Shown here piece after piece: positions 2,337 to 61,685 of a stretch of 64,000 nt of DNA. A program made the position numbers and the translations under genes. The DNA comes from Stenotrophomonas rhizophila (GTDB lineage: Bacteria > Pseudomonadota > Gammaproteobacteria > Xanthomonadales > Xanthomonadaceae). Positions within the stretch are counted from its first letter, which is position 1. Each line of letters begins with the position of its first letter. The notes under the pieces are model-generated. The model searched no databases. It was not told where the DNA came from and saw nothing but the letters and a program-made list of their open reading frames with translations. The DNA lies in NCBI RefSeq assembly GCF_001704155.1, contig NZ_CP016294.1, positions 2,229,501 through 2,293,500 of the forward strand. Direction: 5' to 3'.

Positions 2337-3236
2337 ATGAAAGAAGCCCAAGTAGCTCCCTCCCGCCGAGGCAGGTGGGGCCAAGACCGTCGATTGGAGT
2401 TCATTGACTCCCGCCTCTACTGGGAAGGTCGACTCAATCGCGCAGATCTAACGGATTTTTTCAGCATCTCGGTCCCCCAGGCCTCTCTGGACTTCGCTGA
2501 ATACCAAGCCCGGGCCCCTGGCAACATGGCCTATGACCGGGGGGAGAAGGCCTATCTGGCAGCCGACGGGTTCGCACCGATCCTCACAGACGGCAGCAGC
2601 ACCCGATACCTGGCCGAGCTCTATGCGCTGACGACAGGGGCAATCCCCGCTGATCTCAGCTTCCTGGGAGCTCTGCCTGCGTCGGATGTCGTGCGGCACC
2701 CTACTCGACTGGTGTCGGCCCCCTTGCTGCGCCAGGTGTTGCGGGCGATCAATACCCAAAATGCTCTTGAGATCACCTATCAGACGATCGCGCGGCCAGA
2801 GCCCGACCGGAGGGTAATCAGCCCGCATGCGCTCGCTTACGATGGGTATCGGTGGCACATTCGCGCGTATTGCCACAATCGCCGAAGCTTTCGGGACTTT
2901 CTCTTTGCCCGGATTTTGGAGTGTGAAGGGCCCAAGACCTGGCTACCGGTCAAGGTTCGGGACGAGGAATGGGAGACGCCTGTCACGATTGCGATCGGGC
3001 CCAATCCAGCGCTTGAGGAAGGTCGGCGCCGCGTGATCGCGCTGGACTACGGGATGACTGATGGGCGGCTGGACATCTCTACGCGCCTGTCGCTGGCCTT
3101 TTACTTGCTTAAACGCCTCGGACTGGACCGCCCCATAGGCGCACTCGCCCCCCACGAACAGCACATCACGTTGCTCAACCGGGCCGAGCTTGAGCCTGTC
3201 CTTCCCCAACTCAACCCACGCAATTCAACCGGCTAA
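2337..3236 (+). CDS. WYL-domain transcriptional regulator, CapW/BrxR type
   Basis: The 299-residue protein has an N-terminal winged-helix region (about residues 10-80, with RRLEFIDSRLYWEGRLNRAD and SISVPQASLDFAEYQ). This pattern is typical of CapW/BrxR regulators. A WYL domain follows at about 150-195 (HALAYDGYRWHIRAYC, then RSFRDFLFARI), then a C-terminal WCX-like region. Family knowledge: these dimeric proteins repress CBASS, BREX and other defence operons and are thought to respond to a ligand or DNA damage through the WYL domain. It is divergent from the MBL/E2 pair, and the four-TM gene follows four bases after its stop, suggesting one transcript. An AGAAGG lies upstream of the ATG. The assignment to a defence regulator is strong by family; the genes it controls are inferred from position. 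Confidence 0.85.
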   Translation: MKEAQVAPSRRGRWGQDRRLEFIDSRLYWEGRLNRADLTDFFSISVPQASLDFAEYQARAPGNMAYDRGEKAYLAADGFAPILTDGSSTRYLAELYALTTGAIPADLSFLGALPASDVVRHPTRLVSAPLLRQVLRAINTQNALEITYQTIARPEPDRRVISPHALAYDGYRWHIRAYCHNRRSFRDFLFARILECEGPKTWLPVKVRDEEWETPVTIAIGPNPALEEGRRRVIALDYGMTDGRLDISTRLSLAFYLLKRLGLDRPIGALAPHEQHITLLNRAELEPVLPQLNPRNSTG

Positions 3237-28964: not shown

Positions 28965-29519
28965 ATGGCTCCAACCTACTACTTCCTGGATACCGAGTGG
29001 TCCGATGCCGATGGTCGCGACTTGGTTAGCTTGGCACTGATTGATGAGAGTGGTGAGCGTCGCTTCTATGCCGAGCGCGCCCAGTTGTCGCCTAACCCCA
29101 CCGAATTCGTACGTCGCTGCGTCTACCCGCTGCTCGATCGAGGAGCTCTTTCCCTATCCGACGCGGCCTTTACCACGGCGTTGCGAGCGTTCCTTCGAGC
29201 CAGCGCCAACCCGGCGGTAATGGCCGATTACCCCACCGATCTGCAACTGCTGCAATGGGCTCTGGACGGCTGTGGACTGCCGACCGCCCAGGCTGCATAT
29301 TGCGGCCCAAAGCCTAACCTCATCCAAACACGCATGTGGAAAGAGGGACTTGCCGGGAGGTTGGTGGAAGACTGGTTCGTGGCGCATCCAGAGCTAAGCG
29401 CGAAACGCCACCACGCCTTAGTCGATGCCCAAGCGCTTCGGATGGCGTGGCTGGTGAGCACTGGTCGCCTACCGGCTCCGTTGTGGGCGGAGTCCTATCA
29501 TCGACTCAATAAATCATAA
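28965..29519 (+). CDS. DEDDh-type 3'-5' exonuclease (paralogue 1)
   Basis: A 184-residue protein from the ATG at 28965, which has AAGGGA upstream; an upstream in-frame start at 28878 is not needed. It carries the RNase T-like acidic motifs Asp9 and Glu11 (YYFLDTEW), Asp88 (VMADYPTD) and His149/Asp154 in the HxAxxDA motif (RHHALVDAQALRMAW). This matches the family of Rv2179c-like 3' exoribonucleases, which degrade RNA 3' ends with metal ions. A second copy with the same residues is at 60560-61111. The duplication is unusual, and both sit in accessory DNA. Confidence 0.88.
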   Translation: MAPTYYFLDTEWSDADGRDLVSLALIDESGERRFYAERAQLSPNPTEFVRRCVYPLLDRGALSLSDAAFTTALRAFLRASANPAVMADYPTDLQLLQWALDGCGLPTAQAAYCGPKPNLIQTRMWKEGLAGRLVEDWFVAHPELSAKRHHALVDAQALRMAWLVSTGRLPAPLWAESYHRLNKS

Positions 29520-60559: not shown

Positions 60560-61111
60560 ATGGCTACCGCGTACTACTTTTTGGACACCGAATGGGCCGA
60601 TGTGACGGGCAGCGAGCTGGTGAGTCTGGCGCTAGTGAACGAGGATGGAGATCGTCATTTCTACGCCGAGCGAGCCATCCTGCCCGACGCCCCCACCGAT
60701 TTCGTTCGTCAAAGCGTCTACCCGCTGCTCGACCGCGGCGGCGTAGCCTTGCCTGATGCCGCCCTGACCACCAAGCTGCGCGCCTTCCTGAACGAGACCG
60801 ACGCGCCAGCGGTGATCGCGGATTTCCCGAACGACCTTCAGCTGCTGCGGTATGCCTTGGATGGGTTTGACTTGCCTGATGACCAAGTCGCTGCATGCGG
60901 GCCCCGGCCGGCCCCGGTCATGACACGCATGTCGAAGGAAGGCCTTCCGGGACTGCTGGTCGAGGATTGGTTCGCAGCCCATCCGGAACATAGGGCCAGA
61001 CGCCATCATGCCCTGGTGGACGCGCAGGCCTTGCGGATGGCTTGGCTAGTATCGACCGACCGCGTCCCAGCTCCCGCGTGGGCCCACTCCTACCGTCGCG
61101 CCCGGGGATAG
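60560..61111 (+). CDS. DEDDh-type 3'-5' exonuclease (paralogue 2)
   Basis: A 183-residue protein with the same acidic set as the copy at 28965-29519: YYFLDTEW, IADFPND and RHHALVDAQALRMAW. The two align without gaps for nearly their whole length, so they are recent or well-conserved paralogues. Family: 3' exoribonuclease, Rv2179c-like. Accessory location of both copies suggests horizontal spread. Confidence 0.88.
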   Translation: MATAYYFLDTEWADVTGSELVSLALVNEDGDRHFYAERAILPDAPTDFVRQSVYPLLDRGGVALPDAALTTKLRAFLNETDAPAVIADFPNDLQLLRYALDGFDLPDDQVAACGPRPAPVMTRMSKEGLPGLLVEDWFAAHPEHRARRHHALVDAQALRMAWLVSTDRVPAPAWAHSYRRARG

Positions 61112-61202
61112 TAGCTTGGTGTCGATCCCGGTATGCTTGCCCTATGACCCGCCTGAGCCCGCTCGACCCTCGAATACCGGCGTGATCGCTTCGATCGATC
61201 AC

Positions 61203-61305
61203 GCCCCTGTTGCTCATGTTGGTCAGAGCGCCGGCCTTATACCCCGGTGAGAGCACGCGCCAGATAAGCGCGTACACGTCGGTTCGATTCCGACCAGGGG
61301 CACCA
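61203..61305 (+). tRNA. tRNA-like sequence with duplicated D/anticodon segment
   Basis: Acceptor arms GCCCCTG (61203-61209) and CAGGGGC (61295-61301) pair, followed by A and CCA. The T-arm GTCGG/CCGAC with loop TTCGATT is normal, and a D-stem GCTC/GAGC is present. In the middle, two anticodon-arm-like units follow in tandem. One has CCGG...CCGG around CTTATAC (anticodon UAU, with a C-C mismatch at the stem base). The other has ACGCGC/GCGCGT around CAGATAA (GAU, but A instead of U at position 33). Deleting 25 bases from 61224 leaves a canonical 76-base-type cloverleaf. It may be a real tRNA-Ile variant with a long insert, or a decayed one. Confidence 0.5.
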
Positions 61306-61685
61306 CTCGGACGGAAGCCTCAGGTCTCTGGGTGCAGCGATCGAGGCTATGCGGCTTTACAGCTGTAACGATAGCTGTGATTGCTGCCTGGGACTGAAGC
61401 CTGATCCCGCCGTTAAGGAATTGGAGGGGATCTGTTCCCGCCGCCGCCGCTGGTATTGCATGCGCCAAGAAGCAGTTTGGGGATAGCATCGACTTACAAC
61501 TGATTGCGACCCCTCTCCATAAAATGCTGCGGTGGTGATTTCGTTCTGACTCAGGACATCACCGCGTCCTCGATCTTGCGCCGCCCGGGCGGATCCAACA
61601 AGCTGCTTTCACTTTCGAGTTGCGTTGCGAGACATGACACGGATCACTTGGACGTTTCCCGATGGTTGGAGTTGAGCCGTCTGCC
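61306..61685. other. gene-free stretch after the tRNA-like sequence
   Basis: About 380 bp with no supported gene. It could contain the end of an element that starts after the tRNA-like locus; I see no direct repeat that proves it. Confidence 0.35.

Follow-up and report, generated by a model that had tools for sequence, protein, structure and literature searches.

A five-armed tRNA gene with UAU and GAU loops in mobile elements of Xanthomonadaceae and in phages

The locus and its surroundings

The window, a 64,000-nucleotide stretch of Stenotrophomonas rhizophila DNA, is part of a 4.2-Mb single-contig genome and carries close to one end a 103-nt gene that is almost certainly a genuine, conserved five-armed tRNA (Table 1). 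Its outer parts are those of an ordinary cloverleaf, with a 7-bp acceptor stem free of mismatches, a 5-bp T stem closing a TTCGATT loop, A73, and an encoded CCA end, but the single anticodon arm of a cloverleaf is replaced by two arms that are both conserved and covarying. The preliminary description of this DNA had reported ideal acceptor and T arms with CCA, as well as two internal units, one beginning with GGTCAGAGC (61221) and the other with GGTGAGAGC (61246), and a hairpin after each of them; all of these elements are present where it had placed them. The 5′ strand of the D stem pairs perfectly with both candidate partner tracts, D3a and D3b, and arm 1 presents a 7-base loop, CTTATAC, in which a UAU anticodon is accompanied by U33 and A37.

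Table 1. Features of the tRNA locus, in coordinates of the window
Feature	Position	Strand	Basis or remarks
3′-5′ exoribonuclease-like gene, not part of the tRNA	60560..61111	+	PF16473, 18.8 bits, below the cut-off of 27
Leader hairpin GTGATCG/CGATCAC, ending right before G1	61182..61202	+	Sequence; membership uncertain
Whole five-armed tRNA gene, CCA encoded	61203..61305	+	Sequence, Rfam tRNA model, model R1
Acceptor stem, 5′ strand (GCCCCTG)	61203..61209	+	Partner 61295-61301
D stem, 5′ strand (GCTC)	61212..61215	+	Alternative partners 61226-61229 / 61251-61254
D3a, D-stem partner 1 (GAGC), immediately 5′ of arm 1	61226..61229	+	
Arm 1, stem CCGGC/CCCGG, 31:39 mismatch	61231..61247	+	Covariation
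Arm 1 loop CTTATAC	61236-61242	+	Anticodon TAT 61238-61240; U33 at 61237
D3b, D-stem partner 2 (GAGC), immediately 5′ of arm 2	61251..61254	+	
Arm 2, stem CGCGC/GCGCG	61256..61272	+	Covariation
Arm 2 loop CAGATAA	61261-61267	+	GAT 61263-61265; A33 at 61262
Variable region, 5 bases, 3′ of arm 2	61273..61277	+	
T arm GTCGG TTCGATT CCGAC	61278..61294	+	Sequence, alignment
Acceptor stem, 3′ strand (CAGGGGC), then A73 and CCA	61295..61305	+	

The leader hairpin abuts the tRNA and, among 13 Xanthomonadaceae-type loci that were aligned, is retained in most, and it may for these reasons have a part in transcription or in processing of the 5′ end. Neither a promoter nor a terminator was found in scans of 60900-61500. 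Homologs of the product encoded at 60560-61111 are annotated as 3′-5′ exoribonucleases, and such a gene adjoins the tRNA, on either side, in 20 loci besides the window, several of which are duplicates of the same record. A second exoribonuclease-like copy, 67.8% identical to the first, lies at 28965-29504 with no tRNA or tRNA piece detected beside it. The window also encodes one serine recombinase and two ParB/RepB-like proteins, a gene content in keeping with location of the tRNA on a mobile element.

Gene finders and covariance models

Models built for one-armed tRNAs read the gene in two mutually incompatible ways, as a UAU tRNA or as a GAU tRNA. The covariance-model check proposed in the preliminary description was carried out with the Rfam tRNA model, which gives 48.9 bits over 61203-61302 and takes the UAU arm for the anticodon arm. 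It does not fit all 103 bases, since 27 of them have to be treated as an insertion within the variable region. ARAGORN reports only 61233-61305, calls it tRNA-Ile(gat), and loses the 5′ part of the gene. An Rfam scan of the window returned no family besides tRNA, and the layout is not that of a group I intron, since the additional ~25 nt lie outside the arm 1 loop. Model R1, the training set of which included the window copy, scored this copy at 107.8 bits; the genome's next tRNA reached 62.9.

Relatives in Xanthomonadaceae and on plasmids

Among 90 other genomes of the genus that were searched, 9 hold a copy with 98-100% identity and 3 a copy with 73-74%; at a loose limit all 91 of 91 genomes matched somewhere, mostly through short pieces of tRNA genes. 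Nineteen plasmid records, all from Xanthomonas, match at 99% identity or above, and in others the tRNA is diverged or incomplete. With each species represented by a single genome, a pattern scan yielded 11 stretches, including some from Lysobacter, Luteimonas, and a Sneathiellales metagenome-assembled genome. Model R2 was run against 398 genomes of the phylum and, among the matches listed, placed none besides G000 clearly above the level of ordinary tRNAs; because it matched mostly ordinary tRNAs, it is unusable for estimating prevalence. Three Xanthomonas plasmids (L036, L037, and L038, at ~2990-3077) hold only the 3′ half of the tRNA behind an unrelated 5′ part, and in this relic the arm 2 loop is altered to CCGATAA.

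The preliminary description had asked for a comparison with relatives and allowed that neither form might have any; relatives do exist. The conservation at 98-100%, the plasmid copies, and the diverged homologs with compensatory changes in both stems place the window copy far beyond chance. It is one member of a five-armed tRNA family that is widespread, with carriers among mobile elements of Xanthomonadaceae and many phages.

Short and long forms of a shared architecture

From the family loci, 104 distinct sequences were extracted, a few of which are not tRNA-like, and two forms can be distinguished. The short form measures mostly 90-95 nt; its D stem has as partner the tract immediately 5′ of arm 1, which occupies the normal anticodon position and is followed by an arm 2 of ~3 bp with the loop CAGATAA. 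The long form, 97-103 nt and including the window copy, has the same loop on a 5-bp arm 2, which stands one base 3′ of the second tract (AAGC or GAGC), the partner of the D-stem 5′ strand. A variable region of 5 bases usually comes next, and in this pairing arm 1 falls within the D loop.

Both arms are upheld by covariation. Of 38 long forms, 32 were aligned (alignment A3), with L062, L144, L145, and L176, which have a 6-base variable region, omitted along with L092 and L068; of 35 short forms, 23 were aligned (A4), the other twelve being diverged. In the long forms (n = 32), two-sided changes occur at four of five pairs in arm 1 and at four of five in arm 2, where 99.4% of cells are paired, and 96.0% of cells pair in these forms, versus 67.5% after shuffling and no more than 44.8% with slid partners. 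The short forms (n = 23) pair in 96.4% of cells, with two-sided changes at two of the three arm 2 pairs. Across the family, the 31:39 pair of arm 1 is often mismatched. The C-G pair closing loop 2 is fixed in part because the search patterns demanded C-G, and phages found by BLAST have A-T beside an unchanged loop 2.

The D stem of the long forms pairs in 86.7% of cells with the second tract versus 66.4% with the first. Of its four pairs with the second tract, three are invariant and so give no evidence of covariation. In plain secondary-structure calculations, which take in neither tertiary contacts nor modifications, the window copy has energies of -38.9 kcal/mol when folded with D3a (fold A) and -35.8 kcal/mol with D3b (fold B), its minimum being -43.3 kcal/mol, and for the majority of phage long forms folds A and B lie no more than 1.5 kcal/mol apart, with B usually ahead.

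Under another explanation the gene would be functionless, either a broken or chimeric tRNA or an attachment-site relic, and the 3′-half relic on Xanthomonas plasmids and the travel of near-identical copies on mobile elements would accord with such an origin. This explanation is very hard to credit, as it is contradicted by compensatory changes in all helices, by the setting of the same two loops in different tRNA bodies, and by a CCA end that is encoded in most of them. The new tRNA architecture raised in the preliminary description is instead backed by its conservation and covariation and by its reappearance in unrelated tRNA bodies. The alternative of a tRNA with an insertion is not supported as far as an accident is meant, although the gene could plausibly have originated by tandem duplication of a unit comprising the anticodon arm and the 3′ strand of the D stem. 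Judged from the aligned sequences, the recurrence of the family and the covariation of both stems mean that the two-armed architecture is real and not an oddity of a single locus.

Phage carriers

Phages carrying the family infect Vibrio, E. coli, Klebsiella, Pectobacterium, and Acinetobacter. The short form occurs in Thalassa-group Vibrio phages, henriette 12B8, and Acinetobacter phage vB_AbaS_qsb1, where it is mostly annotated as tRNA-Ile, and the long form occurs in 24 phage records (Escherichia, Pectobacterium, Vibrio, Klebsiella, and Pseudomonas phages), with both loops present in all seven of the records inspected. The window copy used as a query found no match in the phage records, although other family types do match there; two further family types used as queries also found none. 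The long two-armed tRNA is unannotated in Escherichia phage EC3a (L282), Klebsiella phage KP13-26 (L284), Pectobacterium phage Arno162 (L285), and Vibrio phage River4 (L287), which shows, together with the ARAGORN call on the window copy, that a common phage gene is misread or overlooked by standard tRNA finders. The tRNA array of KP13-26 also includes a gene annotated as tRNA-Pyl (L284:4049-4123), which is probably a suppressor-like tRNA.

Within one genus, Thalassa (short form) and River4 (long form) carry the gene in the same slot, between an identical tRNA-Ile(gat) gene and a tRNA-Phe gene, which suggests that short and long forms do the same work. The presence of the same RNA in these phage tRNA arrays also speaks against the relic at an integration site that the preliminary description had considered. 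The plain tRNA-Ile(gat) of Thalassa (L260:2913-2988) and River4 (L287:2233-2308) has C33 in a CCGATAA loop, which is unusual for a decoding tRNA.

Carriage by phages and plasmids, together with the exoribonuclease-like gene that often adjoins the tRNA in Xanthomonadaceae elements, would be compatible with a decoy, in which arm 2 mimics the arm of tRNA-Ile(GAU) and absorbs or resists a host anticodon nuclease or anticodon-binding factor. Such a role is quite improbable. It leaves the constant UAU of arm 1 unexplained, we know of no anticodon nuclease directed against tRNA-Ile(GAU), and the exoribonuclease-like gene was found only at Xanthomonadaceae-type loci and on viral contig L140, and at no other phage locus examined.

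Co-occurrence of the UAU and GAU loops

Members of the family have ordinary acceptor and T arms. Their arm 1 loop is NUUAUAN, with the anticodon UAU for the codon AUA, and their arm 2 loop is CAGAUAA, which is the anticodon loop of tRNA-Ile(GAU) with A replacing U33. The main form of arm 2 has G34, A35, U36, A37, and A38, and positions 37 and 38 differ in some forms. In viral contigs, a strict pattern gave four matches, one of which (L051) is not tRNA-like, and two looser patterns gave at least 120 each. One of these looser patterns asked for CCAGATAAG and a T arm, and for nothing in arm 1. The matches listed cover 119 sites, of which nine were set aside as not tRNA-like and 110 kept, corresponding to 72 distinct sequences, a few of them doubtful (L113, L116); among these matches, TTAT stands upstream at the place of arm 1 in 72 of 72, against a background of 11%. 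Two loci, L121 and L089, hold only the 3′ part of the tRNA. Viral contig L169 encodes a one-armed tRNA of ordinary size with CAGATAA as its sole anticodon loop (Ile GAU, A33).

Single positions of loop 2 were then changed in viral scans that required TTATA and kept the rest of the motif fixed, position 37 being varied only jointly with another position. The unchanged motif, the other of the two looser patterns, gave at least 120 matches, while a change at G34, at A35, or at U36 gave none in each case. A change at position 33 gave 13 matches and one at position 38 gave 12, with the loops CAGATAG and CAGATCG. The 13 without A33 include four ordinary tRNA-Ile(GAU) genes in which TTATA occurs by chance; R2 identifies five others as two-armed, one (L202) is two-armed by eye only, and three are ambiguous; two-armed forms with U33 carry CTGATAA, the exact loop of tRNA-Ile(GAU). 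R2 was applied to nine of the 12 position-38 loci and six of the 13 position-33 loci, with scores that include 53.2 for L253, within the range of ordinary tRNAs, and 63.7 for L257, barely above that range (62.0). The lack of changes at 34-36, set against changes at 33 and at 37/38, identifies the fixed core of loop 2 as GAU, which is the anticodon of the major isoleucine tRNA.

Because UUAU of loop 1 is complementary to AUAA of loop 2 in the common form, the two loops could instead be conserved for mutual pairing, with loop 2 serving as an internal mimic of AUA that holds the tRNA inactive, shapes it, or joins two molecules. This too is quite unlikely, since pairing would not explain the invariant G34 and C32 of loop 2, and the CAGATCG variant sets C opposite U34 with no compensation in loop 1 (L250, L254, L255, L257, and L258). 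Hairpins only 0-3 bases apart could, moreover, hardly kiss within one molecule.

Isoleucine codons and a proposed division of labor

The two anticodons jointly cover every isoleucine codon, and one alternative is accordingly a dual decoder, with two alternating folds in which UAU reads AUA and GAU reads AUU and AUC, so that one tRNA would serve all three codons. The fold energies within ~1.5 kcal/mol in most long forms and the U33 in arm 2 of some short forms lend this idea some appeal, but it is considered unlikely. U33 is nearly universal in decoding loops, and A33 is the rule in arm 2, an argument weakened by the C33 in the plain tRNA-Ile(gat) of Thalassa and River4. These two phages already have that plain tRNA-Ile(gat) alongside, and the second fold is impossible for the short form by the same pairing.

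The reading favored here, with slightly better than even confidence, is that of a five-armed tRNA-Ile of mobile elements in which, on sequence grounds, arm 1 would read AUA and arm 2 would give identity to isoleucyl-tRNA synthetase (IleRS). E. coli IleRS reportedly charges a UAU tRNA poorly, the cause being the Trp of its C-terminal CxRCW motif. The host of the window copy has TilS, tRNA-Ile2(CAU), and one IleRS above the family cut-off, with the motif CVRCW, the Trp of which we take to be the E. coli-like residue; on this motif, the host enzyme is not an IleRS adapted to U34. A plain UAU tRNA is expected to be poorly charged in a host with the usual IleRS, TilS, and tRNA-Ile2(CAU), an obstacle that a second, GAU-bearing arm would bypass. 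E. coli IleRS does not charge a tRNA with unmodified C34 (PMC11938285), and the U34 tRNA of Mycoplasma mobile is accompanied by a changed IleRS (PMC4014445). One pattern written for the host's ordinary tRNA-Ile(GAU) gene gave no match. AUA accounts for 61 of 701 isoleucine codons in the window versus 70 of 1254 in host stretches, a weakly raised share based on crude open reading frames.

We infer that the gene is expressed and that its arms act in the following manner. Arm 1, with UAU, U33, and A37, would be the decoding arm for AUA, and arm 2, as a copy of the tRNA-Ile(GAU) loop, would be the recognition arm for the host IleRS. With the two jobs split, an ordinary IleRS could load a UAU tRNA with isoleucine without the lysidine made by TilS. 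In the long form, the D stem would swap partners and thereby bring either arm to the anticodon position. That the adaptor function is divided in full, with GAU presented to the synthetase, UAU to the ribosome, and the long-form D stem switching the arms in turn, seems about as probable as its opposite. A split between identity and decoding would explain both the co-occurrence of UAU with GAU and the invariance of the GAU core, and an arm 2 that served identity alone would be free to lose its U33.

For bacterial IleRS, A73, C/G34, A35, U36, A37, and A38 are listed as determinants (PMC9976931). In a count of 99 family sequences, for which five of the 104 were left out because they do not resemble a tRNA or have a damaged 5′ side, A73 is kept in 98. 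Against the split, the CAGATCG and CAGATAG forms lose A37 and/or A38, and the minor isoleucine determinants C4-G69 (43 of the 99 sequences) and C29-G41 (19 of 32 long forms) are not kept. The split also does not explain the constancy of C32, the preference for A33, or the variants at 37/38, nor how the arm 2 of the short form, of ~3 bp and in the place of the variable arm, would reach the anticodon pocket of IleRS.

Comparison with known tRNAs

Some genes of the family are already on record as tRNA-Ile, and the two-armed architecture itself was not found described: searches of open full-text literature, which lacks most subscription papers and all preprints, listed no paper on such a tRNA. A close functional likeness would be tRNA-Ile(UAU), or tRNA-Ile3, of Mycoplasma mobile, lactobacilli, and other bacteria, in which an unmodified-type UAU reads AUA with no lysidine-CAU (PMC8450103 and PMC9976931). 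That tRNA is an ordinary one-armed molecule in hosts with a changed IleRS (PMC4014445), whereas the present tRNA has a second arm and a host IleRS with the usual CxRCW motif. The same codon is read by tRNA-Ile2(CAU), whose lysidine or ava2C is produced through TilS, and the UAU tRNA described here would need no lysidine. Phages also carry tRNA-Ile2(CAU), a vibriophage being one example (PMC13191261), and the host of the window tRNA has both the UAU tRNA and the tRNA-Ile2(CAU)/TilS system. With the chloroplast tRNA-Ser(GCU) described as having "two anticodon arms" (PMC10228390) only the phrase is shared, since the second arm there reads as an ordinary class II variable arm, and the passages on it make no claim of a second identity loop that is conserved.

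Class II tRNAs (Leu, Ser, and Tyr) resemble the short form in having a fifth hairpin between the anticodon arm and the T arm, and the arm 2 of the short form has the place and size of a class II variable arm. The fifth hairpin of the present family differs in ending in an invariant GAU loop and, in the long form, in occupying the canonical frame of an anticodon arm, one base after the D-stem strand and followed by a 5-base variable region. Mukai et al. in 2017 reportedly found allo-tRNAs and other novel cloverleaf tRNAs by genome search, with acceptor/T splits of 8/4 and 9/3; their architecture is likewise unusual, but the family described here keeps a 7/5 split and doubles the anticodon arm. 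A tRNA is normally identified and used through one anticodon. If the proposed division of labor is true, the five-armed tRNA would physically uncouple identity from decoding, with one arm for the enzyme and one for the ribosome, and would represent a new solution for reading AUA as well as a ready-made design for engineered tRNAs.
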